A DNA stretch of 64,000 nucleotides from NCBI RefSeq assembly GCF_900112025.1, contig NZ_FOKL01000001.1:1231084-1295083 (forward strand), read 5' to 3'. Under the pieces are notes generated by a model that made no database searches, was not told where the DNA came from, and was given only the letters and a program-made list of their open reading frames with translations. This document shows, in pieces, positions 10,309 through 64,000 of this stretch. Position numbers and translations under genes: made by a program. The stretch comes from Janthinobacterium sp. 344 (GTDB lineage: Bacteria; Pseudomonadota; Gammaproteobacteria; Burkholderiales; Burkholderiaceae_D). Position 1 is the first letter of the stretch. Each line of letters starts with the position of its first letter.

Positions 10309-10322
10309 ACACGCGGCAATGC

Positions 10323-10363: not shown

Positions 10364-10380
10364 ATGTCTGCGTTCTATGC

Positions 10381-45672: not shown

Positions 45673-46074
45673 CTATTTGAAGCTCCACCGTTTGTGGCCA
45701 ACATAGCTGGTAAATACAGGAACCAATACGCCAATTGCATGAGCAAATTCTTTCGAATATGCTGATATTTTCATTGCAGGAAATACGTAAAACAACAAGA
45801 ACAGACTGATACCCCAAGTCTGCAGTATTGCCACTGCATTGACAAGAATGAAAAATAACATGGAACGATGCACGGCCTGTTGGCTTTCCTTGAAAACAAA
45901 AAGACGCGCCAACACATAAGCTGTAATCATGCCAGTGATGTAGGAAAGAATCACTGCGGTAGAGAATGACATCCACTGATTATAAATAATTCTGGAACCA
46001 AAATTAACTACCGCTGCCATACCACCCGTTACCAGGAATAAAATAAACTGGCGCGATGCAAACACCTTCATCAT
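45673..46074 (-). CDS. GtrA-family membrane protein
   Basis: 133 residues, four helices. [20 protein letters not shown] at the start and [10 protein letters not shown] at the end are the GtrA family hallmarks. Family members help flip or hand over polyprenyl-phosphate sugars; Rv3789 of Mycobacterium tuberculosis, next to dprE1, is in this family and linked to the arabinose donor. The usual GtrB glycosyltransferase is absent beside it. Its ATG overlaps the stop of the FAD oxidoreductase (ATGA). Confidence 0.9.
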
Positions 46075-47357: not shown

Positions 47358-47360
47358 TAT

Positions 47361-48308
47361 TTAGAACTCCAGAATGACTTTGTTATAACGAGGGTCGTTG
47401 AATGTCTCATCGATCGCATTTGCAAACGTCGTATACGGCACGCCGAATTTTCCAGGCCAGTCGATCACTTCGAATTCATCTTTTGCACTCAATGCCTTCA
47501 GTTGCTGCGTGGTAAACGGTGGATTCTTGTCAAACATGGACCACGTGGCGATCAGAGCATAAAACAGGCCGTACGGAATTTTGACGATAGCTGTCTTTGC
47601 ATCAGTTGCACGTTTGATGATGCGAATGATATCGATGTAGTCGATCTTTTCATGACCTGAAATATTGTAAATGCCATCAGTCACGCGATTTTCGATACAA
47701 CTGATAATGATGCTCGAGAAATCTCCGACATACAGCGGCTGACGCATGTAGCGGCCGTGCCCGGGAATGGGAAATACTGGTACCTTTTTCATGAAGCGGG
47801 ACAGCCAGCCGAGATGCTTGCGGTCAAACCAGCCAAACATCAAGGTCGGACGCAAAATAGGACAGGCAATGCCACTGGCGAGCACCAACTGCTCTTGCTC
47901 AATTTTACTGCGCGTGTAGAAATCATCAGCCACCGATTCCACCACCGACGAACTGATATGTACCAAATACGGTTGCTTTTTGGCAGACTTGATTAATTCC
48001 AGTATCAAGCCGCTTGCATCAATATTATTACGTTGGAAATCCTGATAATCAATGCCGCCGATCTGGGCCTGCAACATGACGACCACGTCGGCATCCTGGA
48101 AATGCTGCTGCCATTCACCCGGCTCCGCAAGATCCGCGTAGACACACTCGACGTCCGGCTGCACCTGTTGCAGGATAGCCAGGTTGGTACGATGCTTGTC
48201 GAGTACGACGATATTCGTATAGCCCTTATCCTTGAGACGTGCCACCAGATTTTGCCCCACCAGTCCGGCGCCCCCTGGTAAAACAATTTTTTGATTCTTT
48301 AAAGTCAT
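47361..48308 (-). CDS. NAD-dependent epimerase/dehydratase (extended SDR)
   Basis: 315 residues. Rossmann motif IVLPGGAGLVGQNLVARLKD, then VYADLAEPGEWQQHF and VVVMLQAQIGGIDYQDFQRN. The SDR catalytic Tyr appears replaced or shifted: SSVVESVADDFYTRSKIEQE contains Y-x3-K (YTRSK). It probably modifies a nucleotide-sugar or lipid-linked sugar. First gene of the epimerase-FAD-GtrA operon; the adjoining upstream 900 bp look decayed. Confidence 0.85.
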   Translation of the reverse strand: MTLKNQKIVLPGGAGLVGQNLVARLKDKGYTNIVVLDKHRTNLAILQQVQPDVECVYADLAEPGEWQQHFQDADVVVMLQAQIGGIDYQDFQRNNIDASGLILELIKSAKKQPYLVHISSSVVESVADDFYTRSKIEQEQLVLASGIACPILRPTLMFGWFDRKHLGWLSRFMKKVPVFPIPGHGRYMRQPLYVGDFSSIIISCIENRVTDGIYNISGHEKIDYIDIIRIIKRATDAKTAIVKIPYGLFYALIATWSMFDKNPPFTTQQLKALSAKDEFEVIDWPGKFGVPYTTFANAIDETFNDPRYNKVILEF

Positions 48309-49213
48309 AATTTATCCACAAAAGGCTGTTGCATTACTATTCGAACTGCACTGCGTGCATGTCTTGCACCAACATGCACGGCGCAACAGGATTGTCATCG
48401 CGCCATGTAGGCAGCGAACAATCCATAAAATTGGTATCCAGCCTGATATGGAATAACAGAGTGTGAAAGCATCTTGCCATTTCAATCAGAACCAGATCAA
48501 ACCACGGTTAGATATATAGCGCGCTGGATAGGGAGGCATGATGTATGCCAACCCAACACTATATGCATTACCGGAATTAGGGTAACGATCACAAAAGCAA
48601 TCGCGGCCAAGCTCTCAGTACTGCCTGCCTGGGCTATCAGTCTTTTCGCAATCGACGGCAAAATACGCCCCGACCTATCCCCTGATCTTCACAGTATGCA
48701 ACTGCAGAAAAATGCGAGGAATATCATGAAAAAGAAATACCCATTCAACTGGCGCAACTGCAGTAGATGTGCACTTTCGTCCACGGCATGAATCAGCAGC
48801 TTGGCGCCGAGCATAACCAAAAAAGTTATAGTGAAAGGCGCCAAATATCGTTGCAACATGCGGTCAGACCTTGGCCCAGTCCATATTCAAGTCGTTTCTT
48901 TCGACCTTTCCCATATGGACACCCGACGGTAGTTGCTCATCCATATTACTGATCAGCCCAGGCGGCGCTGTCCACGGAGTGAAACCGAGGAACGCCAACA
49001 GCAGGCGATGACTAGCACAGACATGGAATAGATCCGACTACGAGAATCAGCCTGTTGTCTGCGCTTTGTTACCTTGCCTGCTGATACGGAACTCGATACG
49101 CTCAAATTTATACTTCCCTTGCTTGAAATTGCCATTTTGGCACTTTCAAGCACTTACCCAAGTATCACCTGAGCAGTTACCGCCAAGTTAAAAAACCTTG
49201 ATTGTAGATTATT
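48309..49213. other. Stretch of about 900 bp without an intact gene; decayed coding traces
   Basis: No full-length gene. On the minus strand, hydrophobic protein-like pieces appear in different frames: a piece ending MDEQLPSGVHMGKVERNDLN at about 48870-49030, the 56-codon frame at 48689-48859, and a piece reading AIAFVIVTLIPVMHIVLGWH near 48550-48620. The frame changes and stops between them suggest a broken membrane-protein gene, possibly removed when the locus was rearranged. The promoter of the epimerase operon should lie near 48309-48400. Confidence 0.45.
48689..48859 (-). pseudogene. 56-codon hydrophobic frame, probable gene remnant
   Basis: MLQRYLAPFTITFLVMLGAK continues to a second hydrophobic segment YFFFMIFLAFFCSCIL and a TGA stop. 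AAGG lies about 10 bases upstream. It could be a small two-helix membrane protein or a fragment of a larger lost one; neighbouring frames with protein-like content favour a remnant. Confidence 0.35.
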
Positions 49214-51826
49214 CTACTTTCTTAATGCAATCGCAGACCACTCCCCCCAAGCACTTCCTTGATCCGAGAATTTAACCATTACTCCATCTTCGGGAATATG
49301 CTCCCCAGAAAATCTTAGCCTCGACCATTGCAAGGACACCGGCAAGACCTGCTGCACTGGAACCACGCCGGCAATTTCCACCACCTGATGACCACCGGTG
49401 GGACCGGACCGATAAAAGAGCGTGTCGCCGCGCTTTACGCGCAGAGAAATACTGCCAATATCGGCATCGCCATGAATCACGCTTCCAAATATCTGCATGC
49501 CACTCAAAGTAGTTTTTTCAAAGTCACTTCCCGTCCATGCATTGTCCGACAACACGTCCTGAGCGCGGATACTAGTTTTGGCCAGGGATGGCTCCATGGT
49601 AGTGAGCTCCAATTGCGATGCCGGCGCATTGATCGCAATGGCAGACCACTCTCCCCAATTGCTTCCCTTGTCCGATAACGTGATGACAAATTCACCCTGC
49701 GGGAAAAAATCATCTGAAAGATCGATCAATGACCATTCATGTGCCACGGGTAGCATCACCACCGGCAATTTACTCTCAAGCACCTGGAGTGTTTGCGCTC
49801 CCTGCGTGGGACCGGAACGATAAAAGATACGATCGCCATGTTTGACGCGCAACGAGATCGTCCCCGTATCTACGTCCCCCCGGATAAAACTGCCCAGTAC
49901 GACCATGCCGGGAATGCTGGTACGTTCAAAATCGGACGCTGTCCATGCATTTCCTGGCAGGACCTGCGAACTGTCGATTGTCGCATGGCCTGGTTCCGGC
50001 CGCATGGGCTGCGGATGAAACACGACAGGTGGCACTTGCAATTGCAAGCTACACTCGGCGTCCTTGTTGCGCACGCTTAGTGTTTGGCCATTTTGCGATG
50101 CCAGAACATATCCCTTGAAGCCGACTGGCTTTACGCCCTCTGGAACGTCGCCGAGCGCGGCAAGCGGGACACCGGGCAAGCCACTCAGGGCCGCGCCTGC
50201 TACTCGCTTGTCGCCATCCAGAAAATAGAGAGCGCCGCCTTCATGTGCAACCATAGGGCCCGCCAGCCAGCCTTGAATACGTAAATATCGCGGATCCTCC
50301 GGCAGCCGCTCTGCAATATTAATCGCGCCCTGACACGCCAGTGGCGCAATTGCAGGCATGCTGCCCCCCACTTTCTCGCGCAATCCCAGCAATGGCTCTG
50401 CACCAAACACGGACAACTTCATTGCCTTCGCCTGCGTAGCTAGTTGGATGCCTTGCTCAGCATTATAAAAAACAAAGCCGATTTGCTGTGTATCCTTGAT
50501 ACCGAGCTCCATTGCCAAAGCCGACACATCGCGTTCAAAATACATTCTGGTATCTGGACGGAATACCGCCATTTCCCTTACTACAATCAGCGCCGAGAGT
50601 ATATACAATGGAATCAACAAGCGCTTCTCTTTACCCCTCAGTCCGTCCAATAGCGGCCGATAATACAGAATAATGAAGGCCGCCCAGGCCATCAAAGCTG
50701 GTGTGGTATAGCGGCTGGTCAACGCCTGCTCAGTACCTAAAAACAGGCGCCCGCCAGCCGTTCCAAATGCCGTACCACCGATGTAGGCAATGAACAGCAA
50801 CATAGCTAGCTCAAAGGTATGCTCGCGCGGCCGTGCAACGGCAACATACAGTCGCCGTAGGCAAGCAATTATCAGAACCAGCGCCATGAACGCCGCGAGC
50901 AATTTGCCAGCAGATCCCTTGCCAAAAATATAATAAAATGGACTACCCAGATAGAATAGAACGTATTCCAAAAATCCGAGCGGATCGCCTTTCAGGGCAG
51001 ACATCAATACACCATGTTTACCTACTGCGTGGTAGTTATGGAAATACAAATAAATACCACCTGCTGCCAAAACTACCAACGTGATGATTCTTCGGATTCC
51101 TTGACGGGCCAAGATGGCGTAGACCGCCATGAAGGGCAGTGCCAGCACACCGTTCGCCATTGTGCCAAGAGACGCAATGCCGAAACAGCAGCCAATCACA
51201 AAATGACGGCTCGATTGCGGCGTTGGTTGCGCCGCTTTCGCAAGCCAGTAAAGGCCACACAGTGGGAGCAATTGAGCCATAATAAACTGGCTCTGGAAGC
51301 CCCAGATCATGTTGTCAAATTGGATCCATTGAAATATCCAGGCTACCAGGAACAGACCCAATACCTGTTCTTCTTTTCCAGTTAGCTCTGTGCCCGCACA
51401 TTTATGTACCAAGCGATAGAATAGTAACGCCGTAGCACCAATCAATGAATAATTGACACAAATCAGAAAGATACTGACACCGCCGAACCACGCATAGTCA
51501 GCCCAAAAGAAAATACGCGAAAGTAAAATACGATGCTCATTATGCTGGCTCCACCATATTCCTACATCACCGGACTGCGCCCGCATGAAAAATTCCAGGG
51601 TACCTGTCCACATATCCCAGAATGGAACAGGAGAATAGGACAAATAACCAGCAATTGCCGATGCACCAACAACAAACAGTGCCAGCGCCCTGAATATCAT
51701 CAAAAAACCATTATCACCTTTGAATATACCCTTATCCATCTTGCTACCATATTCTGATATCTTCGATAAAGGTGGTCGGCTTCCTGATTTACTATCCACA
51801 CGATCTACGTCAAATTCCATCGGCAT
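49214..51826 (-). CDS. Large polytopic membrane protein with two tandem C-terminal domains; candidate GT-C glycosyltransferase
   Basis: 870 residues, family not firmly recognised. An N-terminal tail of ~45 residues, then about ten to eleven membrane helices to about residue 425. The first periplasmic loop carries acidic/aromatic residues SPVPFWDMWTG and later SQHNEHRILLSRIF, as in GT-C transferases that use polyprenyl-phosphate sugars. The periplasmic C-terminal half ends in two homologous ~111-residue domains (about 622-732 and 758-870), both with NAWT-x-SDFE, SLRVK-x-GD, FYRSGPT and WGEWSAIA. It is the last gene after the D-arabinofuranose pathway genes, 4 bp from the DprE2-like stop, so a transferase using that donor is a reasonable guess. 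The ATG at 51826 is preferred; one at 51856 overlaps the previous gene. Confidence 0.7.
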   Translation of the reverse strand: MPMEFDVDRVDSKSGSRPPLSKISEYGSKMDKGIFKGDNGFLMIFRALALFVVGASAIAGYLSYSPVPFWDMWTGTLEFFMRAQSGDVGIWWSQHNEHRILLSRIFFWADYAWFGGVSIFLICVNYSLIGATALLFYRLVHKCAGTELTGKEEQVLGLFLVAWIFQWIQFDNMIWGFQSQFIMAQLLPLCGLYWLAKAAQPTPQSSRHFVIGCCFGIASLGTMANGVLALPFMAVYAILARQGIRRIITLVVLAAGGIYLYFHNYHAVGKHGVLMSALKGDPLGFLEYVLFYLGSPFYYIFGKGSAGKLLAAFMALVLIIACLRRLYVAVARPREHTFELAMLLFIAYIGGTAFGTAGGRLFLGTEQALTSRYTTPALMAWAAFIILYYRPLLDGLRGKEKRLLIPLYILSALIVVREMAVFRPDTRMYFERDVSALAMELGIKDTQQIGFVFYNAEQGIQLATQAKAMKLSVFGAEPLLGLREKVGGSMPAIAPLACQGAINIAERLPEDPRYLRIQGWLAGPMVAHEGGALYFLDGDKRVAGAALSGLPGVPLAALGDVPEGVKPVGFKGYVLASQNGQTLSVRNKDAECSLQLQVPPVVFHPQPMRPEPGHATIDSSQVLPGNAWTASDFERTSIPGMVVLGSFIRGDVDTGTISLRVKHGDRIFYRSGPTQGAQTLQVLESKLPVVMLPVAHEWSLIDLSDDFFPQGEFVITLSDKGSNWGEWSAIAINAPASQLELTTMEPSLAKTSIRAQDVLSDNAWTGSDFEKTTLSGMQIFGSVIHGDADIGSISLRVKRGDTLFYRSGPTGGHQVVEIAGVVPVQQVLPVSLQWSRLRFSGEHIPEDGVMVKFSDQGSAWGEWSAIALRK

Positions 51827-51830
51827 AACA

Positions 51831-52586
51831 CTAGATATCCATTTTATTAAAAACAAACTGAGGTAGATGACGGATAATCATCATGATTAAAGCCCATTTT
51901 CCAGGGGTATAAACAACAGGCTTACCCTGCCTCATGCCACTGACAATTTGCTGCGCCACCTGTTCGACGCTGGCCAGTTTGCCCCCATCCTGTTTTAAAT
52001 GCGCCGTCATCGGCGTATCTGTTGGCCCTGGCTTAATCAGTACAATTTTGACAGCACTACCTGCGAGCCGATGTTGCAAACCTTGAGCGTAGCGGGTCAC
52101 CAGTCCTTTTGCGGCGCCGTACACATAGTTGGACTTGCGACCACGATCGCCGGCAACCGAACCGATCAGCCCCAAAGTGCCACGATCGGCCTTCTCCATG
52201 TGCCGTACAAACGCCTCAGCAAACAGGACTGGGGAAACTCCATTAACCATGAGCGCCTCCTGATTGGCATCCAGATGCTGCTGACAGGCAACTTGGTCAG
52301 GCAATGAACCATGGGCGATGAGCACCACGTCGACAGGTGCCTCGGCACAAATCGCATCAACCTGGCGAGCAATCGCCAAAGGATCGGCGAAATCAGCTTG
52401 CAATGCGTGTACCTGCGCGCGCGGACTGCGAACACGTAAATCAGCGGCAACACGCTCGGTCTTTTCGAGGCTGCGTCCCAGCAGCGTCACATCGCACAGC
52501 GCCTCTTTTAGCCACAATCGGGCACAATGTTCTGCCATGGAGGACGTGGCACCAACAATAACAATTTTTTTTATTTGGTCAGACAT
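51831..52586 (-). CDS. Short-chain dehydrogenase, DprE2-like (decaprenylphosphoryl-2-keto-ribose reductase type)
   Basis: 251 residues. Rossmann segment KIVIVGATSSMAEHCARLWL, then NVSP-type VNGVSPVLFAEAFV, catalytic Ser region LIGSVAGDRG and YVYGAAKG with Tyr and Lys of the SDR triad. It lies directly after a DprE1-like gene (TAAATG junction) and after a UbiA-type phosphoribosyltransferase, the pathway order for polyprenyl-phosphoryl-D-arabinofuranose synthesis, where DprE2 reduces the keto intermediate with NADH. The specific role rests on this context. Confidence 0.85.
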   Translation of the reverse strand: MSDQIKKIVIVGATSSMAEHCARLWLKEALCDVTLLGRSLEKTERVAADLRVRSPRAQVHALQADFADPLAIARQVDAICAEAPVDVVLIAHGSLPDQVACQQHLDANQEALMVNGVSPVLFAEAFVRHMEKADRGTLGLIGSVAGDRGRKSNYVYGAAKGLVTRYAQGLQHRLAGSAVKIVLIKPGPTDTPMTAHLKQDGGKLASVEQVAQQIVSGMRQGKPVVYTPGKWALIMMIIRHLPQFVFNKMDI

Positions 52587-53885
52587 TTAGTTTCCCATGA
52601 GGCGTCGCGACATTGCCGAGCTAATGCCAGCGTCGCGGAAAGGTAAGAATTCATTGAGGCGTGGATAGCCGGCTTCGAACAGATCCCGTGGCATGCGCGC
52701 ATCCTTGGCCATGTAAAGTCGGCCACCAGCCTCACGGACAATCGCGTCGAGCCTTTCAAACAGCTTGAGCGTGCGCGCACCATGATTGGGAAAGTCCAGC
52801 GCCAGCGTCACGCCAGGCTGGGGAAAACTCAGCATGCCAACCGCCTGACGTTCGCCGAAGGTTTTCAGCACGGCGAGGAACGAACCGTCACCGGCATTGG
52901 CAATCGCCTTCAACATGGCAGAGATGGCATCCTGGCCAACGCTACGCGGTACAACACTCTGATACTGATAAAAGCCACGTGGTCCATACATGCGATTCCA
53001 CTCAAGCAGATTATCCAGGGGATAGTTGAAAGCCTCGTAATGGCTGAGTCCCCGGCCTGCGCGCCATTTATTCAAATGGAAGTAAGCGGTGTTGAAAATT
53101 GGTAACGACAGCTGGTTAACCAGTGAAATGGGCGGTACAAACGGCATTTTCCGTTCACGTGTACGCGGTGGCGGCCGCTCAATCAGCGAGCTCGGATTGC
53201 CACGCATAAAAATACCTCGCCCCCCGCCACCCGACATGCAATCAATCCAGGAAACCGTATGCTCCCACGCCGCTTCAGAAGAGTCTGCCAATTCGAAAAA
53301 CTGCTCGATATTCGCATAAGGCACGGTTTCCGTCGCCATCCAAGGCCCGGCGACACGACGCAACTGCAATTCAACCGTAACGATAATGCCGGTCAGGCCA
53401 AGACCGCCAACGGTGGCGGCAAACCATTCAGGATTCAGTGCCGCACTGCAAGAGAGTACCGTGCCATCGGTACGCGCCAATTGCAGTGTCAGTACGTGAT
53501 CGCCAAACGAGCCCGTTGCATGGTGGTTCTTTCCATGCACGTCATTGGCAATCGCACCGCCGACCGTCACCATTTGCGTACCGGGTGTGACGGGTAACAT
53601 CCACCCTCGCGGTACGCTCATGCGCTGAATATCACGCAACAGGACACCTGCTTCACAGACTAGCCGGCCGTTATGCTCATCGAAAGATACAAAATGATTC
53701 AGTCCGGTAGTCTGCCAAAGCAAGCCGCCTGGATTCAGGCAAACATCGCCATAACTTCGTCCCATGCCATGGGCAAGACCCGGCCGGGAAGCCGCGATCT
53801 GCCGCGGCACATCGCTTGGCGCCATGAGTGGTACGACCCGATGCGCTGAACGCTCGAGACGGCCCCATGAGGACACATCGATCAT
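52587..53885 (-). CDS. DprE1-like FAD oxidase (decaprenylphosphoryl-beta-D-ribose 2'-oxidase type)
   Basis: 432 residues of the VAO/FAD_binding_4 family. GRSYGD (42-47) and HGKNHHATGSFGDH (117-130) are FAD-contact stretches as I recall from DprE1. The C-terminal part reads LSFPQPGVTLALDFP then GGRLYMAKDAR. The position aligned with Mycobacterium Cys387 (in NICVDF) is Ala362 (TLALDF); Lys394 aligns with catalytic Lys418. Oxidises polyprenylphosphoryl-ribose at C2', the first half of the epimerisation to arabinose. Coupled to the HAD-UbiA gene by ATGA and to DprE2-like by abutting codons. Confidence 0.9.
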   Translation of the reverse strand: MIDVSSWGRLERSAHRVVPLMAPSDVPRQIAASRPGLAHGMGRSYGDVCLNPGGLLWQTTGLNHFVSFDEHNGRLVCEAGVLLRDIQRMSVPRGWMLPVTPGTQMVTVGGAIANDVHGKNHHATGSFGDHVLTLQLARTDGTVLSCSAALNPEWFAATVGGLGLTGIIVTVELQLRRVAGPWMATETVPYANIEQFFELADSSEAAWEHTVSWIDCMSGGGGRGIFMRGNPSSLIERPPPRTRERKMPFVPPISLVNQLSLPIFNTAYFHLNKWRAGRGLSHYEAFNYPLDNLLEWNRMYGPRGFYQYQSVVPRSVGQDAISAMLKAIANAGDGSFLAVLKTFGERQAVGMLSFPQPGVTLALDFPNHGARTLKLFERLDAIVREAGGRLYMAKDARMPRDLFEAGYPRLNEFLPFRDAGISSAMSRRLMGN

Positions 53886-55312
53886 GGTAAGCCCACCGTG
53901 CCGATTCCCATGATAATCGCAAAAATCAGGCCGGCAAGCAGACTCGCCTTATCCTTCAGCGCAAAAACGAGAGGATCATCGTGCATTTCACCGCGATGTG
54001 CCTTGATCCACACCCAACTCACCCAGAACAGCATAACTGGCACCGCGCCCCAAACCGCTTCTGGCAAACGGTATAACACAAGCACGGCATCGCTATTCAG
54101 GTACAGTGCCAGTACGACAGTGGCAGCATAACCAGAGGCGATACCCAATGTCTGTACCAGCGGCGCGTCAGAGGTAAAGTACCCACGTCCATGGACCTTC
54201 GTTTTGCCACTCAACATTTGTCCCTGCAGTTCAGCATAACGCTTCACGAATGCAAGCGACAGGAACAGGAATACCGAGAACGCCAGCAACCAGAAGGAGA
54301 GAACATGGCCAGCGGCGGCGGCACCCGCGATGATGCGCAAGGTGTACAGCACGGCGAGAGTCAGGCAATCTACCAATATCAATCTTTTCAGACCGAACGA
54401 GTACAGACAGGTCAGCACAAAGTAGACGAATAACCAGGTGAGAAATGCCTTGCCGACAAAACTGGCCAGGACGACGCTCGCTGACAATAGCAGCGGCGCT
54501 AGCAACACCCCCATCCAGACCGGCACACTACCTGCCGCGAACGGGCGCTTACATTTGCGAGGGTGCTCACGGTCGCTTTCAAGATCCAGCAAGTCATTGG
54601 CAATGTAGACGGTCGAAGCACATAAACTAAATGCAACGAAGGCGAACAGCAACGCTACCCAGGTATCGAGGTCGGAAATCTCGTGCGCGGCAAAAAGTGG
54701 AACAAACAGCAATAGGTTCTTCATCCATTGGTGCACACGCAATACCCGGCGCCATACCGAGAACCCTCGTTCAGCTGGTGGAAATTCACGCTCCACCTCA
54801 CACTGGGCGGCAGCTTTTCCGGCCAGCTGGGCTGAGGCGTTAACCACGACAGCGCGACGCGCGCGAGCCCATACGGCAAGATCCGCGCTGGAATTGCCAG
54901 CATAGTCGAATCCGGCACGGCCGAAGCGTAGCTCCAGCGCTGCGGCCTTATTTCGCCCAGCCAAATTATCACCACCATTGCTCGCCATTACCTCATCAAA
55001 AATACCGAGATGGTTTGCAATCGCCGTGGCAAAGGAGCGGTCTGACGCTGTACACAATATCAATCGACGGCCAGCGGCCTTTTGCTGCTTTAGCCAGTCC
55101 AGTAACGGTAAATTATAGGGAATGGCATTCACATCGAACTTGGCACGACGTGCCAGTTGCTGCTTCAATATGGCTTTTCCCTTATATAGCCAATACGGCA
55201 TATACAGCGAATCCAAGGGTTTATCCCGAAATGTCTGCAATGCAGATTCATGGAGCATGTCCGTTAAGATCAGGGTGCCATCAAGATCGACAACCAGAGG
55301 GGGTGACGTCAA
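53882..55312 (-). CDS. HAD phosphatase-UbiA fusion, polyprenyl-phosphate phosphoribosyltransferase type
   Basis: 476 residues. The N-terminal 170 are a HAD phosphatase (DLDGTL at 9-14; ILCTASDR; Lys/Asp region GRNKAAALE and YAGNSSADLAVW). The remainder is a UbiA prenyltransferase with eight to nine helices and the metal motif NDLLDLESD (239-247) followed by REHPRKCKRPFAAG, much like decaprenyl-phosphate phosphoribosyltransferase (UbiA, Rv3806c). The fusion would transfer 5-phosphoribose to polyprenyl-phosphate and then remove the 5-phosphate, two steps that mycobacteria do with separate proteins. First gene of its operon; overlaps dprE1-like. Confidence 0.88.
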   Translation of the reverse strand: MTSPPLVVDLDGTLILTDMLHESALQTFRDKPLDSLYMPYWLYKGKAILKQQLARRAKFDVNAIPYNLPLLDWLKQQKAAGRRLILCTASDRSFATAIANHLGIFDEVMASNGGDNLAGRNKAAALELRFGRAGFDYAGNSSADLAVWARARRAVVVNASAQLAGKAAAQCEVEREFPPAERGFSVWRRVLRVHQWMKNLLLFVPLFAAHEISDLDTWVALLFAFVAFSLCASTVYIANDLLDLESDREHPRKCKRPFAAGSVPVWMGVLLAPLLLSASVVLASFVGKAFLTWLFVYFVLTCLYSFGLKRLILVDCLTLAVLYTLRIIAGAAAAGHVLSFWLLAFSVFLFLSLAFVKRYAELQGQMLSGKTKVHGRGYFTSDAPLVQTLGIASGYAATVVLALYLNSDAVLVLYRLPEAVWGAVPVMLFWVSWVWIKAHRGEMHDDPLVFALKDKASLLAGLIFAIIMGIGTVGLP

Positions 55313-55472
55313 AATATACTCCCGGCGCTTGCCAGAACTAAACTGGGAGAAATTTCTCTTAAAGAGTTAAACATATATTTTCTAATTTTAACTTCAAACA
55401 TAAATAAAATTACTCAAAAAACCCTGCAGCCATGACGTATTCGAAAACAACTACGTCATACCGAAGCTTATG
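55313..55472 (-). promoter_or_regulatory. AT-rich gap containing the presumed promoter of the arabinose-pathway operon
   Basis: 160 bp between two co-directed genes that otherwise overlap or abut all along the locus. Strongly AT-rich around 55360-55410, with several TA-rich -10 candidates on the minus strand. No hairpin terminator was found, so readthrough from the upstream operon is also possible. Confidence 0.35.
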
Positions 55473-58400
55473 TTATTTGTTAATGTTGTGCATGGGGCTG
55501 CGGCTCAGTGACCGTTTGATACCGCGCCGAACCGCGTAGGGGATCATGGCGTTGATACGGCGCAGCGATGGATTCATGTACAGACGCCATAACACCCTCA
55601 GCAGCGCTTCACGCCAGCCATGCGACGATTCGACACCGCTGACAATTTTCTGTGGATCAATCTGGAAATCCCTTTTCTGGCCAGAGTGCGGCGTTTTCAT
55701 GGCGCGTGCCACTAATTGAGGATAATCCTGAATGTAGAAGTCCGCCTTGATCGTTCCCCCGTCATATACGGGTGCAACCATCGCACCGTTGGGTAATTCC
55801 TCAACGAAATGATAGATCTGCGATAGCAGCTGTGTCGTTGGCTGCAGGTGATCGAACAGCATGGTATTGGCACGGCCGGATAAACGCTCGCGGAAGGCGC
55901 CCAAATCAGGTGCAATAATCGGCAAGCCCGAATCCAGCGCATGGCTCAACGTGTAGCTATAGGTTTCAGGCCATTGTGCCGGGAAAAAAAGCACATCAAT
56001 CTGTTGCTGCGCGATCAGTTCCCGCAAGTCCGCCACAGCGTAAGGTCCAGTGGTTTCCAATACCTTCAACAACCGGTAGGAGTAGCCGATCAATTTGAAC
56101 GAGACCTGCGCGCCCTCGCCCTGCGCCAGCTCCGCCAGCTCTTCCAATACATCCGCGCCCTTTTCCCGCCCAACCGCTCCCAGGACACCAATAACATGAT
56201 GCGATTTCCGTTCGATATTGCGCGGCGCCCGATTAACATCGAGCGACGCTTCAATATGCGGTGCGACAACGGCATTATTTAACTGATAGACACTGGCAAA
56301 CAACTCCTTGGTCGGATTACAGGGGAAAATAAGGCAGTCCGCATTTTCAATCAATGGCCGAAAACGCTGCTGCCATTCATCAACACTGATACCTGGTGGC
56401 AATGGATAGAGGGGGTTATTCTGCATCGCGGAAAAATATCCCGGATAGCACCCATTTTCCTCGGTCAAGGTCGGGTTCGCATTAAGCCAGTAATAATCAT
56501 GGGCGGTGATCAGGGAGGGTACCTGTAGATCCGTCGGCAGGCCCAGCAATGTCGAATCGAGGTGATAAGTGTGGTGGAAGTGCACGGCACTCACGCCGAT
56601 TGCCTTGCACAGTTCAATCAGTGCCGGATACTCCATCGGCATCGCATACATCACCTTGTCACCGTGCGGCCCAGCCCGCAAGCTGACAACCACGCTGGAA
56701 CTTCCTTCCAGCGGCGCCAGAACAAGATGCGCCATGCTGTGCTCGAAGTACTGCGTCAGTTCCACGATATGTTGAGCTACCCCGCCGCCCGATGCATGCG
56801 ACACATGCAACACCTTGGGCAGTGCCAGCGAGGCCAGCAGCTGCACGTAACGCTGCACGCGCGCGGCACGCAACGGGTCCTGCTTGATGAACATCTGGAC
56901 ATCGGCGTGGTAATTCGGATGCAGCGCGTCGAGCACGCCCATGGCCCGATCGACCAGCGCTTGTTTATCCGTCGAAAAACTAACGCCGCCCTCATGGTAG
57001 GCGTACATATTTGGCGACAGGACGTTCAGCCAGCCCGCCTTCAGCGCACGCTGGCACAGGTCATTTTCTTCGCCATAGCCCCGGCCAAATTTTTCCGTAT
57101 CCAGATAGCCGATCTGATCCAGGCAGGCACGACGGATGTACATGCAAAAGCCAATCCCCGTGGGGGCAGCGACACAGGGCAGCTTCGATTGCCGAAAGAC
57201 GGCATCAATGGTGTTTACATCAAGATTGAACGGCTGCGGATTCTCTTCGAGAAAGTTCGGAAAGCTGCATATGGTTGCATTATTTGAAAATGGCGTTACC
57301 GTGGCAATGTCCGGGCGCGCATATGCCTCCTCGACAAGGCGAGCCAGCCAGTTATGCGGCACCATGACATCACTATTGAGCAGTACCACATCCTGCCCGG
57401 AAAAATGTGCAAGTCCGCGGTTGACTGTTCCGACGAAGCCAAGGTTGGCGGGATTTTGCAGCACCTCGAAACGGCCTGGCCATACTTCGACCAACGCCTC
57501 GAGCATGGCTTGCATACCTGCATCAGGACTACCGTCATTGATTGCCAACAGCATCGCGTTGTCAACCGCCAGAATAGCCGGCATCGCCGCTTCAATACAG
57601 CGCCGCGTCATTTCTATACCGCGATACACGGGCAGGATGACCGACACACTATGCGTTGGCGAGATAGGCTGCGGAATCACTAACGAGGTGTCAATCACCG
57701 GCGTTCCCGCTGCTGGTATACCGCCGGGCGCAGTCGCGACAGTGGCATTCTGCTTCGCCATCCTTTTGCGGAAAGGATCCATTGCAGCGGAGAAATCACC
57801 GCGAAGTACCCGACCAATCCAGCGGTATGGCTTGGTCATTTTCCATGAGCGTGATGCGATGATGTCAGATAGGGACATCTCACATTGCTCGAGGCGCGCG
57901 CGCAGGTGTTGCGCCTGCGCCTCGAGGTTAAGGACATGTTGCTGCTGACCCTCGATAGCCTGCTGCTGACCTTCAATAGCCTGCCGCTGGCCCTCGATAG
58001 CCTGCTGCTGCGCCACAATGGTCGCCTCGTGATGAACAATAGTTGCCTCGTGCTGCACAATTGTCGCATCACGTTCCTGGATCATCTGAGCATGTACCGC
58101 GATATCAGCTTCAAGTTCGCCACTCTTGGTGTCACGCTGAGCAAGCATCGATGCGTACTCGCTGATAGTCGCTTCTCGCTGGCCAATGGCCCAACGCAGA
58201 TGAATCACTTCATCCGCGCGCTCCGCAGCAAGTTCACTTGGTGTGTACATTGGCAACAGTTTGTCCATCTCCCAGTCCCTGAACAGCTTCGCGGGACGGC
58301 CTGTGATGGTCTGCTGAATACTCGACTCAAGAGCAATATAGCGCGCAAAATCAGCCTCGTCGAGCGTCAGGCCGACCGCCGACAATGCACCGTCGATAAA

Positions 58401-59921
58401 CTCTCTACGACTGATTCGCGCCTGCGGCGCAGGGCGCGCAAAACGGCTCACCGCCTTAATAAGCGCCAACAACGAACGGAATAACAAATGGCCAATCTCG
58501 ATCGGGAGTTCAAGTTGCCACTCTTTGTCGATCAATATCGGCTGGCCATCCGGGGCAATGACGATATTTTGAGGAATGACGTCAAAAAAACGTCCCGGCA
58601 CCTGCAAATGCGTTGTCAGCGAGGTGCCGGTAGCGAAGGCGCCGACCTGCACCAGTACGCCAAGATAATCCTGAAGATACTTGGCGACCTGCTGATATGA
58701 CCAGCCTTCCTGCGTAATGATGTCGATGAAGTCGAGCGTAAATACCTTGCCCAACGCGTATTCATCCTGGGCAGCCACAGCGAAGCGGACTTCGGACGAT
58801 GCAGGAGCATCGTCCTCAGTCTTGCCAAGGCGCCGATACAGTACTTGCACCGGTGCACCGCCCACGCGGACAAAACGGGTTTCCTTGCAATACGCAGGAA
58901 TCCGGTCGACACTATAATGAAATGCCAGCGTATCGCCAGCCACGCTGGCGCGCGGTGCAGGCGAGGCAGCGATGAGGAAGGAATTGCTGATATCCATCCC
59001 CAGGCCGTTGGCGATCATTTGCGGAAAGGCCAGCTCAAGCGAAAAATTACACTCCGATGGCAATTGGGGATCACGCAAGGCGCTCTGCCAGGCCAGGGCC
59101 GCAGCATCAAACTGCGGATCGGCGAAGCCGGATTCGGTCACGATAGACACAGGTAACTTGTAGTCGGGGAACGGGGCCAGAAACTCTGCCGTGGAAAAAC
59201 CAGCCTGCCTGAGCAAATCGGTCAGAACCTGACGACCAAATGTATGCGGCTGATCATCACGATAACGGCCTTCGATGCCAATCATCGGTCGTCCCAGATG
59301 GTCCTCCGGTGCGCCGGCAAAATACTTCAAGCCCAGCTGATTTTCTATCGCGATAATCAGTTGTCCGCCAGGTTTCAACAATGCGCGCACACGCGCCAGC
59401 ATGGTCAAGGTAGGGTGCTCGCCACCCGTGAACAAATTGGCATACTCTAGGACACCAATCAAGGTGATCACGTCGAACTGGTACTCGCATTTGAACTGAT
59501 CGAACTTTTCACTGAGTACGGTGACATTATCGAGTTCGCGAGTACGCGAACGGGCGATGGCCGCACGCCGCGGGCTTCCCTCCAGCGCCAGCACGCGCGC
59601 CCCGGACTCGCCAAGGTAACGCGTGATGGCCCCACATCCGGCGCCGATCTCGAGCACATCAGCGTCCTGTAGTGTGCTTTCGAAGGGACGCATCAGGTTG
59701 GCGCGGGTTCCGCTCAAGTGATATACAGATGGCCAATCGATGCAATGCTGACGCAATTGCGTCGACAACACGGAAACGTCAGTTACCTCTCGAATGGCAC
59801 GCGCGATGCGTTGCTCCACCTCGTCGCCATCGCTGTAGGCGATGCCTGCATAGTTCGGGTCGCGCCAGACCTGCTGCGCCGTATCCAATACATATCCTGC
59901 CCGTTCAACTAACGCCTTCAT
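55473..59921 (-). CDS. Giant multidomain O-chain protein: methyltransferase, kinase-like, coiled coil, GT2 and GT4 glycosyltransferases
   Basis: 1482 residues. (1) Class I methyltransferase about 60-250: VLEIGAGCGAITRYLGESG (89-107). (2) Kinase-like domain about 340-480: DVIPQN (447-452) matches the D-x4-N catalytic loop and ILIDKEW (462-468) the metal-binding DFG site. (3) Coiled coil about 560-695 with exact heptads (ATIVHHE, QAIEGQQ). (4) GT2 about 755-990: VSVILPVYRG, DGSPD, LLNSDV. (5) GT4-like about 1035-1400: HVSHASGGGVAQH, then PETYSYTLSHALDSGLPII with the E-x7-type motif. Domains 1-3 reproduce E. coli WbdD, the chain terminator and length ruler of ABC-exported O9a antigen; domains 4-5 resemble WbdA-type polymerising transferases, here in one chain. 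wzt immediately upstream overlaps it by ATGA. Confidence 0.85.
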   Translation of the reverse strand: MKALVERAGYVLDTAQQVWRDPNYAGIAYSDGDEVEQRIARAIREVTDVSVLSTQLRQHCIDWPSVYHLSGTRANLMRPFESTLQDADVLEIGAGCGAITRYLGESGARVLALEGSPRRAAIARSRTRELDNVTVLSEKFDQFKCEYQFDVITLIGVLEYANLFTGGEHPTLTMLARVRALLKPGGQLIIAIENQLGLKYFAGAPEDHLGRPMIGIEGRYRDDQPHTFGRQVLTDLLRQAGFSTAEFLAPFPDYKLPVSIVTESGFADPQFDAAALAWQSALRDPQLPSECNFSLELAFPQMIANGLGMDISNSFLIAASPAPRASVAGDTLAFHYSVDRIPAYCKETRFVRVGGAPVQVLYRRLGKTEDDAPASSEVRFAVAAQDEYALGKVFTLDFIDIITQEGWSYQQVAKYLQDYLGVLVQVGAFATGTSLTTHLQVPGRFFDVIPQNIVIAPDGQPILIDKEWQLELPIEIGHLLFRSLLALIKAVSRFARPAPQARISRREFIDGALSAVGLTLDEADFARYIALESSIQQTITGRPAKLFRDWEMDKLLPMYTPSELAAERADEVIHLRWAIGQREATISEYASMLAQRDTKSGELEADIAVHAQMIQERDATIVQHEATIVHHEATIVAQQQAIEGQRQAIEGQQQAIEGQQQHVLNLEAQAQHLRARLEQCEMSLSDIIASRSWKMTKPYRWIGRVLRGDFSAAMDPFRKRMAKQNATVATAPGGIPAAGTPVIDTSLVIPQPISPTHSVSVILPVYRGIEMTRRCIEAAMPAILAVDNAMLLAINDGSPDAGMQAMLEALVEVWPGRFEVLQNPANLGFVGTVNRGLAHFSGQDVVLLNSDVMVPHNWLARLVEEAYARPDIATVTPFSNNATICSFPNFLEENPQPFNLDVNTIDAVFRQSKLPCVAAPTGIGFCMYIRRACLDQIGYLDTEKFGRGYGEENDLCQRALKAGWLNVLSPNMYAYHEGGVSFSTDKQALVDRAMGVLDALHPNYHADVQMFIKQDPLRAARVQRYVQLLASLALPKVLHVSHASGGGVAQHIVELTQYFEHSMAHLVLAPLEGSSSVVVSLRAGPHGDKVMYAMPMEYPALIELCKAIGVSAVHFHHTYHLDSTLLGLPTDLQVPSLITAHDYYWLNANPTLTEENGCYPGYFSAMQNNPLYPLPPGISVDEWQQRFRPLIENADCLIFPCNPTKELFASVYQLNNAVVAPHIEASLDVNRAPRNIERKSHHVIGVLGAVGREKGADVLEELAELAQGEGAQVSFKLIGYSYRLLKVLETTGPYAVADLRELIAQQQIDVLFFPAQWPETYSYTLSHALDSGLPIIAPDLGAFRERLSGRANTMLFDHLQPTTQLLSQIYHFVEELPNGAMVAPVYDGGTIKADFYIQDYPQLVARAMKTPHSGQKRDFQIDPQKIVSGVESSHGWREALLRVLWRLYMNPSLRRINAMIPYAVRRGIKRSLSRSPMHNINK
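57939..58067 (-). repeat. 21-bp coding minisatellite encoding coiled-coil heptads
   Basis: About six 21-bp units within the 1482-residue gene. Three encode ATIV-x-x-x heptads, three encode QAIEGQ-x heptads (residues about 619-661). Units such as ctgctgaccctcgatagc and its near copies recur every 21 bp on the plus strand. Gain or loss of whole units would keep the frame and change coiled-coil length by seven residues. Confidence 0.8.
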
Positions 59922-61264
59922 GCAACAACCTCTTTTGCCATCATATTAAGTTCCAGATCGACCAAGCCAAACAGCACAGAATTTGGCCCTACTTGCAAAT
60001 GTATCGAATCATAGCGGCGGTCATGGGGCACGGCTTCCTCCCCCTCCTTGGACGCGATACCCAGCGAAATAAAATAATCGCCCGGCGCCAGCCGGCAAAT
60101 GAAAGCGGCATCGGCCTGTATCACCGATCCCGCGCGGCCCACCTCATGGAAGGAAGCGCACTCCAACGTCTCCGAGTTCACGCCGTAAATCGTGACGCCT
60201 TCCTTGGTTTTGATCGTGATACCCAGGATAGGACGATAAAAGCTGGTATGAAACTTCACCGATACTGACAAGCTGATACGCTGCCCCGTACTTACCACTG
60301 CGGGATAAGGCACGCCATCTGCCGCCACATAGAAATCCAGGATGGAGGCCGTGCCGTCACCCCAACGGTATTCGTGCGGGTTGTAGCCTGGACGCGATGC
60401 AAACACATCCTCAAGGTGACTTAGTCCGTGCTCGGTCGTATCGAGCAGCGTTGGCGCCTGGCGTGCAGCAGCGGCGCTGTCTTCCGGCAAGGCCTGCTTT
60501 TCTTTGCCAAAGAGCAAATCCAGATAACGATTGACCACTTGCTTGGGCGCGCCACTCTCCAGCTGCACTCCTTGGTTAAGCAAGATGGCGCTGGTGCAGT
60601 GCGTGACAATCTGTTCGCTGGAATGGGTCACCAGCAAAATGCTGGTACCGTTATCCTTCAACTGGCGCAAGCGCTCGAAGCACTTGGCCTGAAATTTCGC
60701 ATCACCGACCGACAATGCTTCATCGACAATCAAGATATCCGGATCGATCTGTGACTGCACCGCAAATGCCAGACGCACCGTCATGCCACTCGAATACGTC
60801 TTGATGGGCTGGTTCATGAAGTCGCCAATATCGGCAAACGCGGCAATGCGGTCGAAGCGCTCGTCGATCTCGCGCTCGGTCAAGCCCAGCACGGTGGCGT
60901 TCAGATAGACGTTCTCTCTACCGGTAAATTCCGGATTGAATCCTGAGCCCAGTTCAAGCATCGCCGCGATACGCCCGCGCGTCTCGATCTGGCCGCTGGT
61001 GGGCGACAAAGTACCGCAAATTATCTGCAGCAAGGTCGACTTACCCGATCCATTGCGCCCGATGATACCAACGGTCTCTCCTTTTTTTACCGTGAAATTA
61101 ATGTCACGTAAGGCCCAAAATTCACGAAAGTACTGTTTCGACACACCGCGGTCACGCTGCAGGCGTGGCAGGATAAATTGTTTCAGGCGGTCGCGCGGCG
61201 TATCATAAATTTCATAGCGCTTGCTCAGCTGGCTGACGCGGATCATCGTATCGTCAGAGGACAT
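59918..61264 (-). CDS. wzt: Polysaccharide ABC exporter ATPase with C-terminal carbohydrate-binding-type domain
   Basis: 448 residues. ABC domain: Walker A GRNGSGKST (69-77), signature TYSSGM (156-161), Walker B ILIVDE (177-182). After about residue 285 a ~160-residue extension with beta-strand character (GTASILDFYVAADGVPYPAV, SLSVSVKFHTSFYRPILGI, then ending VGPNSVLFGLVDLELNM). In E. coli O8/O9a, the Wzt C-terminal domain recognises the modified non-reducing end of the finished chain; the same is likely here. MSSDDT start is preceded by AAGGG; it overlaps wzm by 11 bp. Confidence 0.94.
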   Translation of the reverse strand: MSSDDTMIRVSQLSKRYEIYDTPRDRLKQFILPRLQRDRGVSKQYFREFWALRDINFTVKKGETVGIIGRNGSGKSTLLQIICGTLSPTSGQIETRGRIAAMLELGSGFNPEFTGRENVYLNATVLGLTEREIDERFDRIAAFADIGDFMNQPIKTYSSGMTVRLAFAVQSQIDPDILIVDEALSVGDAKFQAKCFERLRQLKDNGTSILLVTHSSEQIVTHCTSAILLNQGVQLESGAPKQVVNRYLDLLFGKEKQALPEDSAAAARQAPTLLDTTEHGLSHLEDVFASRPGYNPHEYRWGDGTASILDFYVAADGVPYPAVVSTGQRISLSVSVKFHTSFYRPILGITIKTKEGVTIYGVNSETLECASFHEVGRAGSVIQADAAFICRLAPGDYFISLGIASKEGEEAVPHDRRYDSIHLQVGPNSVLFGLVDLELNMMAKEVVA

Positions 61265-62108
61265 CGGCAAACCCTTTTCTCGTTTTTTGAAACCAGGCAA
61301 AACCTGCCCAAGCAATAACAACAGCTACCGCCATATACAAGCCCAAACCTGGCCAGCTTGGCATCTTTCCCCAAATCAATACGTCACGCGCCTGCTCGAT
61401 GATGAAAGTCAGAGGGTTGGCCATGATGTAACCGCGAAATGCTTCAGGTACGGCAGTCACCGGATAAAAAACGGGAGCAAGAAACATCATCAAGGTAGTA
61501 AGAATAATAATTGTCTGGCCGACATCGCGCAAAAATACCCCCAGCGATGCAAGTATCCAGGCCAGCCCGGTGGTCAACACCACAAGGGGCAGCAAAACCA
61601 CTGGCAAAAAAACGATCGTCCATGGTAAATAACCATTAAACAGGGCAAATGCAGCCAGTAGCACGCAAATACTGACAAGGCCGTGGAACAGGGTTGCCCC
61701 CATCGTAACAATCGGCATGATCTCGATGGGAAAAACCACCTTCTTGACATAATTCACATTCGACAAGATCAATCCAGGTGCGCGGTTCAGCACTTCACTG
61801 AACAGGTTCAGCACAATCATGCCCACAAACAGGAGCAAGGCAAACTGAGTCTTGCTTTCACTGCCGTTCATGCCGCCCCAGCGCGATTTGAAAATTTCAG
61901 AAAAAACAAAAGTATAGACAAGCAACAGCAATACGGGATTGAAAAATGACCAGGCCAGCCCCATTGCGGAGCCTTGATAGCGGCCGACGACATCGCGCTT
62001 CGTCAATTGCCAGATCAAACGCCGATTACGCCACAAGCTCGATACGAGGGCGGCAGGGGAAACAGGCTGTTCGGCATGGGGGTTGGTCACATTGGCGTTG
62101 ATGCTCAT
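61254..62108 (-). CDS. wzm: Polysaccharide ABC exporter permease
   Basis: 284 residues, six helices, ABC-2 type. Family features include LIWQLTKRDVVGRYQGSAMG near the start and FLRDVGQTIIILTTLMMFLA late. Exports the undecaprenyl-diphosphate-linked polymer across the inner membrane with Wzt. Start MSINAN at 62108 overlaps the rfbC stop as ATGA. Confidence 0.95.
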   Translation of the reverse strand: MSINANVTNPHAEQPVSPAALVSSLWRNRRLIWQLTKRDVVGRYQGSAMGLAWSFFNPVLLLLVYTFVFSEIFKSRWGGMNGSESKTQFALLLFVGMIVLNLFSEVLNRAPGLILSNVNYVKKVVFPIEIMPIVTMGATLFHGLVSICVLLAAFALFNGYLPWTIVFLPVVLLPLVVLTTGLAWILASLGVFLRDVGQTIIILTTLMMFLAPVFYPVTAVPEAFRGYIMANPLTFIIEQARDVLIWGKMPSWPGLGLYMAVAVVIAWAGFAWFQKTRKGFADVL

Positions 62109-62650
62109 GCAAAGCACTCCGCATCTCGCAGCAGCTTTCCTTGCTGGTCTTTGGCGGACAGGATGGGCGCACCATCGAGCGGCCAGACGATGCCCACCTG
62201 TGCATCATTCCACAGCAGACTGCGCTCAAACTCTGGCGCCCAGTAGTCGGTGGTTTTATATAAAAACTCAGCACTGTCGGACAATACCAGGAAACCATGT
62301 GCGAAACCTTCTGGTATCCAGAACATGCGCTTGTTCTCAGCAGACAATTCGACACCGACATGCTGGCCAAACGTCGGCGAACTGGCACGCATATCGACAG
62401 CGACATCAAAGACACGGCCTTGCACCACGCGCACCAGTTTGCCTTGCGGGCACTGAATCTGATAATGCAAACCGCGCAACACATTTTTGGCGGATCGACT
62501 ATGATTGTCCTGCACGAAATCCACGTCCAGTCCTGTCAATGCATTAAATTGACGTTGGTTGAAGCTTTCGTAGAAGAAACCGCGCTCGTCGCCGAACACT
62601 GTGGGCTCGATAATCAGCAGCCCATCGATGGCTGTATCAATGCGCTTCAT
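62105..62650 (-). CDS. rfbC: dTDP-4-dehydrorhamnose 3,5-epimerase
   Basis: 181 residues. [40 protein letters not shown] with catalytic His, [19 protein letters not shown] and [16 protein letters not shown] are all family stretches. Third step of dTDP-L-rhamnose synthesis. The MKRIDT start overlaps the rfbA stop (ATGA); a longer frame runs inside rfbA and is rejected. Confidence 0.97.
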
Positions 62651-63540
62651 GAGACTGGCCTTTCCTTCAGCAGACGCAACAAGTACTGACCGTAAGCATT
62701 TTTCAACAGCGGCTGTGCCAGGAGAGACAGTTGTTCCGCATTGATAAAGCCCTTGCGATACGCAATCTCTTCTGGACAAGCTACTTTTAGACCCTGGCGA
62801 TGTTCAATCGTCTGGATAAAGTTACTCGCTTCCAACAGGCTGTCGTGCGTGCCAGTATCGAGCCACGCAAAGCCGCGGCCCATCATAGTCACATTCAATT
62901 GCTCTTTTTCCAGATAAATCCGGTTTACGTCCGTAATTTCCAGCTCGCCCCGCGCCGATGGCTTCAGGCTTGCCGCAATATCGACTACTTGATTGTCATA
63001 GAAATACAAGCCCGTGACAGCATAATTACTTTTCGGCTGCGAAGGTTTTTCCTCCAGGCTGATGGCCTTGCCCGCCGCATCGAAATCCACGACGCCGTAA
63101 CGTTCAGGGTCTTGTACGTGATAGGCAAAAACCGTGGCCCCATCGCTGCGCTGGGAAGCTGCTTTTAATTGCACAGGTAAATCATGGCCGTAGAAGATGT
63201 TATCGCCTAATACCAAGGCACTCGGTGCCCCAGCCAGGAAATCTTTCGCAATAATAAACGCTTGCGCCAAACCATCCGGCGTCGGCTGGACCGCATATTG
63301 CAGGTTCAACCCCCAAGCACTGCCATCGCCAAGCAATTGCGCAAAACGCGGCGTGTCCTGTGGCGTAGAAATAATCAAAATGTCCCGTATCCCTGCCAGC
63401 ATCAGCGTTGTCAGAGGATAGTAAATCATCGGCTTGTCGTAGATAGGCAGCAACTGCTTGGATACCGCCGTAGTGACCGGATACAGGCGGGTACCGGAGC
63501 CACCGGCAAGGATAATACCTTTACGTTCAATCATGATCAT
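62647..63540 (-). CDS. rfbA: Glucose-1-phosphate thymidylyltransferase
   Basis: 297 residues. [48 protein letters not shown] and [19 protein letters not shown] are conserved. Makes dTDP-glucose, first step of dTDP-L-rhamnose. The ATG at 63540 overlaps the rfbD stop (ATGA); ATG at 63534 is the alternative, two codons later. Confidence 0.97.
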
Positions 63541-64000
63541 TTCTCAAAATTTTCCGTCAGCATGCGCAAAACACCCGTCTGCCAGGTGGGTAACGTCAAT
63601 GCGAACGTGAGTTGCAGTTTTTGGGTATCCAGTCGCGAATTCTTGGGGCGCGCGGCAGCGGTCGGAAAGGCTGCCGACGCGACTGGCTGAATGTCCTGCT
63701 GGGCGACCAGCACGGGCAAGCCGGCCTCGCGCGCCTGCGCAATGACGAAACTGGCATATCCATGCCATGATGTCTGGCCGGCTGCGGCCAAATGGTAGAT
63801 GCCGCTCAGTTGAGCGCCTCCCTGCCAGCGGGCGATCGCTTGCGCAGTAACGTCGGCGAGTAAATCGGCGCCGGTAGGAGCACCGATCTGATCATCAATG
63901 ACCGATAACGTGGTGCGCTCACAGGCGAGACGCAGCATGGTCTTTGCAAAATTACCACCCCGCCCGGCATAAACCCAGCTGGTCCGGAAAATCAGATACT
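63537..64000 (-). CDS. rfbD: dTDP-4-dehydrorhamnose reductase, C-terminal part (runs off the right edge)
   Basis: The visible 154 codons read from the edge [20 protein letters not shown], with the RTSWVY segment typical of RfbD, then [20 protein letters not shown] and [19 protein letters not shown]. Final step of dTDP-L-rhamnose. rfbB (dehydratase) would be expected just beyond the edge. Confidence 0.95.

Follow-up and report, generated by a model that had tools for sequence, protein, structure and literature searches.

A putative fusion of O-antigen polymerase, coiled-coil ruler and O7-type chain terminator in Janthinobacterium sp. 344

The Geobacillus protein WsaE is an example of a methyltransferase fused to two rhamnosyltransferases. 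In ORF6 of the Klebsiella pneumoniae O7 system, an experimentally demonstrated methyltransferase-kinase is joined via a coiled coil to two rhamnosyltransferases (PMC11231755). In vitro, the end rhamnose is phosphorylated and then methylated by this protein, and the D441A substitution leads to the loss of kinase activity in vitro and of lipid A-core-linked O antigen in vivo, the polymer of the mutant in vivo being read by the authors as unexported (PMC11231755). According to the same authors, the O7 kinase is quite different from WbdD in both sequence and structure, its closest fold being that of the aminoglycoside kinase AmiN (PMC11231755).

The stretch of DNA analysed here, hereafter the window, comprises 64,000 nucleotides of Janthinobacterium sp. 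344. The 1482-residue frame on which the original prediction was built is real, being an intact ORF on the minus strand with an ATG start (Table 1), and the domain order proposed for it (methyltransferase, kinase-like domain, coiled coil, GT2, GT4-type module) was borne out. The reported adjacency to wzm-wzt was also found: the ORF and the 3' end of wzt overlap, and upstream of wzt follow wzm, rmlC, rmlA and rmlD in the same orientation. The Wzt_C domain of the adjacent Wzt is well recognized (Pfam E 4.2e-31). Since full-length relatives of 1420, 1500 and 1524 aa (open frame) exist, the gene is conserved. The central claim of the original prediction, a fused polymerase, ruler and terminator next to a Wzm-Wzt exporter with Wzt_C, is supported by homology, while the kinship of its kinase with WbdD is not supported. 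The gene, its module order, the conservation of its catalytic motifs, the periodicity of its coil and its neighbourhood were directly observed, and it is considered likely that polymerase, ruler and terminator form one chain making an O polysaccharide with an O7-type terminator.

The G+C content of the polysaccharide locus (window 44001-64000) is 0.43-0.56 compared with 0.61-0.66 before it, and thus the locus looks acquired. The drop in G+C begins just past the DNA polymerase III alpha gene (39173-42754). The 1482-aa gene is adjoined by a pentofuranose cassette (window 45673-55312), which, after PMC11127046, predicts arabinofuranose side chains on the polymer. The presumed membrane GT-C protein of 880 aa showed no Pfam matches at E up to 0.01, and homologues of DprE1/E2 are also present in Duganella L024 (35%). 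The initiating GT and the adaptor GT must be encoded outside the locus; two PF00953 loci are located on other contigs, and a search for the adaptor GT with one query returned weak matches only.

Table 1. Features of the fused gene and its surroundings (positions in the window; aa, residues of the 1482-aa protein)
Feature	Position	Strand	Basis
Putative fused O-antigen terminator, coiled-coil ruler and polymerase, 1482 aa	55473..59921	-	ORF, Pfam, relatives
Methyltransferase domain, aa 1-265	59127..59921	-	Pfam, alignment
O7-type kinase-like domain, aa 325-560	58242..58949	-	alignment; matches no Pfam family
Putative catalytic loop DVIPQN, aa 447-452 (D447 = O7 D441)	58566..58583	-	position, motif
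DKEW motif, aa 465-468, at the presumed kinase DFG position	58518..58529	-	motif
Coiled-coil ruler, aa 563-688	57858..58235	-	periodicity, alignment
21-bp tandem repeat within coil, 3.4 copies, 86% matches	57940..58010	.	Tandem Repeats Finder
21-bp tandem repeat within coil, 2.5 copies, 81% matches	58015..58067	.	Tandem Repeats Finder
Post-coil motif SRSWKMTKPYRWIGRVLRG and amphipathic stretch, aa 690-720	57762..57854	-	presumed membrane-proximal ruler end
Polymerase module 1, GT2 (GT-A type), aa 758-1020	56862..57650	-	Pfam, alignment
Polymerase module 2, GT4/GT1_4 type (GT-B), aa 1030-1482	55476..56834	-	Pfam, alignment
wzt with C-terminal Wzt_C domain	59918..61321	-	Pfam
wzm, ABC-2 permease	61254..62117	-	Pfam
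rmlC (dTDP-L-rhamnose synthesis)	62105..62779	-	Pfam
rmlA	62647..63540	-	NTP_transferase match, context
rmlD, extends beyond window edge	63537..63998	-	domain annotation
UbiA-HAD polyprenyl-phosphoribose synthase	53882-55312		cassette member
DprE1-like oxidoreductase	52587-53885		cassette member
DprE2-like oxidoreductase	51831-52586		cassette member
880-aa protein, presumed membrane GT-C, repeated C-terminal stretches	49214-51856		judged by eye
GtrA-family protein	45673-46074		cassette member

The methyltransferase motif noticed earlier belongs to a Pfam methyltransferase domain (aa 90-188, E 5.5e-13). O7 ORF6 was compared through a proxy, the fusion protein of a Pseudomonas asturiensis plasmid (L026, 1457 aa), and through the published O7 residue numbers (PMC11231755). 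The SAM residues of the proxy occupy exactly the O7 ORF6 numbers 28, 66, 91, 93, 112 and 158, its catalytic Asp is residue 443 vs 441, and the GT2 motifs DHDD and NxD are 257 residues apart vs 255 in O7. The first 584 aa of the window protein share 49% identity with the N-terminus of the proxy, and residues Y29, Y67, G93, G95, E114 and Y160 of the former correspond to Y28, Y66, G91, G93, E112 and Y158 of O7 ORF6, their equivalents being invariant in all seven aligned N-termini. The identity of the N-terminus to six relatives ranges from 33 to 68%, with the SAM and kinase-motif residues invariant in the alignment. The proxy gene (8992-13365 of L026, plasmid pCC1524) closely matches the O7 ORF6 architecture: a methyltransferase-kinase is followed by an extra, beta-rich-looking stretch and two GT2 modules.

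The two motifs on which the assignment of the kinase had been based, DVIPQN and ILIDKEW, are both present, and the catalytic Asp D447 was placed by position and motif via the P. asturiensis proxy. In an alignment of 18 kinase-like proteins, the other members of which are 17-58% identical to the window protein, neither the D and N of the catalytic loop nor the E and W of D-x-E-W vary, and the D preceding this E is kept at 90% or more (L064, L067, L069, L071 and L072 were left out because of long inserts or strong divergence). A Pfam scan of the 18 members yielded five families, each in a single member and with a best E of 0.074, and none for the window protein; phmmer with the kinase region and a scan of viral contigs gave no result. 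Fold modelling, the check named with the original prediction, produced two low-confidence models of the region (mean pLDDT 52.7 and 50.1, from 4-sequence alignments). A Foldseek search with the second one gave no match at E up to 0.001; of the 107 obtained at E up to 10, the top one had E 0.65, and protein kinases were frequent, at non-significant E values, among the 50 listed. When the kinase profile was compared with the PDB, six matches were obtained at E up to 10, of which the best was a septin coil (E 0.008) and the third a weak one to choline kinase 4r77 (E 0.6), aligned at the catalytic segment; no kinase scored below E 0.6.

The assignment of this kinase to the WbdD type could not be maintained, as its similarity to E. 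coli O9 WbdD is not significant beyond the catalytic loop. Membership was rejected after BLASTP against E. coli HS WbdD, where the best match (E 0.075) lies outside the kinase; the catalytic loops themselves give a 19-residue match of 16.5 bits (E 3.9). In hhalign, the 18-member kinase profile aligned with WbdD at the catalytic loop with a probability of 2.2%. SAM motif I matched that of WbdD (E. coli HS, L115) over 26 columns with a probability of 53.5, and WbdD was absent from the six PDB matches mentioned above. Judged by its sequence, the kinase-like domain belongs to the type found in O7 ORF6. Among the relatives of this domain, the protein encoded at 7525-10596 of L067 (G080) is interrupted in its kinase-like domain by a long insertion of repeats ahead of the catalytic loop, as the alignment shows. 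In addition, two unannotated human-faecal records labelled Bacteriophage, MT839147.1 and MT836085.1, encode methyltransferase-kinase relatives (29% identity over 86% of the query and 38% over 52%, respectively).

Both glycosyltransferase domains of the original prediction were recovered by Pfam, GT2 at aa 760-937 (E 2.6e-16) and GT4 at aa 1046-1216 (E 5.4e-7), and a Glyco_trans_1_4 match at aa 1242-1358 remained below the Pfam cut-off. In seven GT2-GT4 sequences 160 positions are invariant, including N849-S850-D851 and E951-E952-N953-D954 of module 1 and the whole of PETYSYTLS (aa 1318-1326, with E1319) of module 2, and since motif residues are among them, both GT sites look active. No other GT2 or GT4 gene above the Pfam cut-off was found among the ORFs annotated at 44-64 kb, which is consistent with one polypeptide making the backbone; the use of dTDP-L-Rha is likely because the rml genes adjoin. 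The Pfam GT2 match of module 1 argues against applying the labels GT102 and GT103, given to the WbbB polymerase, to the modules of the window protein, both families being predicted to be GT-B (PMC8476585); the labels were rejected on this ground.

The GT2-GT4 pair also occurs on its own in L113 (36% identity) and as a separate ORF in Aeromonas L028 (39%), where a transposase ORF lies between the pair and an ORF judged by eye to be GT99-like. In L022, a GT2-like ORF is situated just downstream of the fusion copy. In L113, a gene located between wzt and the unfused polymerase (9400-10437, G049) encodes a sulfotransferase-domain protein (Pfam E 8.4e-9) with a coil-like end and the motif SWQITKPLR, which makes a sulfate-adding chain terminator possible; a sulfotransferase-domain ORF lies between Wzt and WbbB in A. 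salmonicida as well (PMC4483657).

The long coiled coil seen in the original prediction is supported by a 3.5-residue periodicity. The stretch aa 563-688 contains no proline, and with the core letters I/L/M/V/F/W the power at 3.5 residues exceeded that of all 2000 shuffles in each of the four fused proteins (see below); with A added to the core letters, the window coil was weaker (p 0.04) and the other three were at p 0.0005 or less. Where the window protein has SRSWKMTKPYRWIGRVLRG behind the coil, WbdD carries SRSWRMTKGYRYLG, SRSW being common to both. The best 18-residue hydrophobic moment in the following amphipathic stretch falls within the top 1-4% in each of five proteins, and in WbdD the best window is found some 20 residues further on. 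By analogy, the SRSW motif and the amphipathic stretch are presumed to form the membrane-proximal end of the ruler.

The ruler span was counted from the T/S-G that is conserved behind the kinase as far as the Trp in the post-coil motif. In the four fusions it amounts to 153 (window), 97 (L022), 167 (L024) and 181 residues (L060), all of which equal 6 modulo 7, whereas the Pro/Ala linkers behind the ruler (69, 60, 70 and 72 residues, in the same order) are not congruent modulo 7. The broader measurement started from 40 rows, 13 of which had no anchor; after L066 and L075 (matched site lacking the post-coil motif) and L101 (duplicate of L062) were dropped, 24 proteins were kept, L069 and L071 having been missed by the kinase motif used. 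Their 17 distinct spans fall into the modulo-7 classes 0, 2, 4, 0, 0, 2 and 9, a bias with a Monte Carlo p of 0.0001 in a test that ignores relatedness; of the remaining moduli tested (3 to 14), p fell below 0.05 for 4 (p 0.014) and for 14 (p 0.007) alone. Of the pairs that are at least 80% identical in the catalytic part and differ in span, 7/7 differ by a multiple of 7, followed by 11/14 at 70-80% identity, 5/11 at 60-70%, 37/127 at 50-60% and 54/103 below 50%, with 1 in 7 expected by chance and the pairs not being independent. When clusters were joined at 60%, five of nine steps between successive spans were multiples of 7 (binomial p 0.0045), the four remaining steps all belonging to one cluster.

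At the DNA level, nine Tandem Repeats Finder rows of period 21 or 42 bp were found in the coils, representing eight arrays in 7/24 genes (two in the window gene, the others in L061, L098, L100, L102, L104 and L109), and none outside them, the coils making up 7119 of 73002 bases. Such arrays are a feature of the window gene alone among the four fusions, and since L022, L024 and L060 lack them, slippage is not visible there now. The most natural reading of these sequences is that slippage between repeats, or recombination, may add heptads to the rulers and remove them as complete units, since the coil has to stay in register; the DNA repeats are permissive evidence rather than proof, as repetitive heptads alone can give rise to 21-bp repeats. 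The 60 matches listed for E. coli wbdD (out of 278 records) include 45 that extend over the complete query, each with a span of 2127 bp; the WbbB-like gene, covered to at least 80% in 16 plasmid records, has a span of 3567 bp in 15 of these and of 3568 bp in one. The heptad variation is therefore not general to all rulers.

Matches to the N-terminal profile were obtained in 5/392 genomes of the family and 10/300 of the order (both at E up to 1e-30), 14/369 of the class (E up to 1e-10), 2/74 of the genus of G595 (E up to 1e-60) and 19/125 of one other family (E up to 1e-100); the family, order and class figures count the own genome and come from samples of larger groups, and the samples partly overlap. 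With the whole protein as a query, 36 other genomes of the same genus gave several partial GT or methyltransferase matches and no full-length one. The terminator is fused to the GT2-GT4 pair in four loci, namely the window, L022, L024 (L059 being its contig again) and L060. Elsewhere it is fused to WbsX with RgpF (L061), to WbsX with GT2 (L063, L098), to RgpF with WsaF_C (L096), to GT4-type modules (L062, L097, L100 and, weakly, below the Pfam cut-off, L065) and to the O7-type double GT2 (L026, L064, L066), or the protein ends after the coil (e.g. L023, L025, L068-L070). This suggests that terminator and ruler of the O7 type form a cassette that has been combined with polymerases of at least five kinds. 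The record of L022 is labelled as a Nitrospira MAG, and its rmlA, rmlC, wzm, wzt and fusion genes are 60-76% identical to those of the window locus; either wrong binning of the contig or a recent transfer of the locus may account for this.

It is proposed tentatively, as possible rather than probable, that the ruler is the length-evolvable part of these proteins, changing in whole-heptad steps (some via in-register 21- or 42-bp repeats) so that O-antigen length could step without breaking the register, and that the terminator-ruler half has been shuffled as a cassette among unrelated polymerases. The natural relatives in L022, L024 and L060, 82-93% identical outside the coil and with rulers differing by 14 to 84 residues, make it possible to test directly whether the length of the coil by itself determines that of the polysaccharide.

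By analogy with the described systems, the two C-terminal GT modules would make the O polysaccharide, probably with L-rhamnose from dTDP-L-Rha, on a lipid carrier, while the membrane-proximal amphipathic motif would keep the polymerase at the membrane and the coiled coil, acting as a ruler, would keep the N-terminal kinase-methyltransferase at a fixed distance. The terminator would be placed at the far end of the coil, with SRSW and the amphipathic stretch at its near end and the polymerase behind. Addition of the methyl-phosphate cap would stop growth and leave a mark recognised by the C-terminal domain of Wzt, coupling termination to export.

Three other explanations should be weighed against this mechanism. 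The terminator might only methylate, as WbdD of O8 does, its second domain being a degenerate, non-catalytic fold; the lack of a Pfam kinase match, the low-confidence models and the E that replaces the D of D-x-E-W in Citrobacter (P0003) would fit such a view. Nevertheless, it seems very unlikely given that the catalytic-loop D and N and the E-W pair are invariant in 18 sequences, the others only 17-58% identical to the window protein, and that kinase activity has been shown for the homologous domain of O7 (PMC11231755). Alternatively, the coil could be a mere linker, with chain length depending on how fast polymerase and terminator work relative to each other, as might be expected from the longer chains produced in vivo by the weak kinase mutant WbdD D350A of E. 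coli O9a (PMC3482155). This is regarded as unlikely, because insertions and truncations in the WbdD coil alter chain length (reviewed in PMC5082667) and the coil lengths keep a modulo-7 register which a floppy linker does not need and the adjacent Pro/Ala linker does not have.

The product could also be a capsule or exopolysaccharide instead of LPS O antigen, which would leave the logic of polymerase, ruler and terminator unchanged. The same strategy serves different classes of polysaccharides exported by ABC transporters (PMC11231755); however, the locus is similar to O-antigen loci in its pentofuranose cassette and in the order rml-wzm-wzt (PMC11127046), even if such cassettes serve other glycans too, and a product other than O antigen appears unlikely.

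The geometry proposed here is that published for O7, for O12 and for WbdD with its recruited polymerase. Like O7 ORF6, the window protein is a single chain that comprises a methyltransferase, a kinase-like domain unlike that of WbdD, a coiled coil and GT modules at the C-terminus; the SAM and catalytic residues are the same by position, and the gene likewise lies among wzm, wzt and dTDP-rhamnose genes. O7, however, has an Ig-like CBM between kinase and coil, whereas in the window protein the coil follows the kinase directly at about aa 563; the O7 authors do not count the CBM among the shared features of their aligned orthologues (PMC11231755). Moreover, O7 employs two GT2 modules and needs a separate ribofuranosyltransferase, while the polymerase of the window protein is composed of GT2 and a GT4-type module. 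E. coli O9a WbdD likewise combines kinase and methyltransferase with a coiled coil and a post-coil SRSW motif (PMC3482155; sequence from E. coli HS, L115), but its kinase is dissimilar in sequence beyond the loop and the polymerase WbdA is a separate protein. In WbbB of K. pneumoniae O12 and Raoultella terrigena, polymerase, spacer and terminator also reside in one polypeptide, the terminator being a GT99 beta-Kdo transferase (PMC9587256, PMC11231755). The WbbB-like 1188-aa protein of E. coli, Klebsiella and Citrobacter plasmids (L027) is likewise encoded behind wzm-wzt and rml genes and has the same GT2-GT4 polymerase (40% identity), but its N-terminus is a GT99 beta-Kdo terminator (Pfam E 1.7e-52; 5fa0 E 4.5e-84); GT99 is present in P0004, and a Pfam search of the window protein up to E 1 returned no match to this family. 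In the literature surveyed, reports of a heptad-quantised ruler length or of a fusion of such a terminator with GT2-GT4 were not found, although figure S9 of the O7 paper, an ortholog figure outside the survey, may show such a fusion. Since O7 ORF6 and O12 WbbB have been published, the concept of the fusion is not new; what appears to be new is an O7-type terminator without a CBM joined to a GT2-GT4 polymerase that has a GT99 terminator as its partner on E. coli plasmids.
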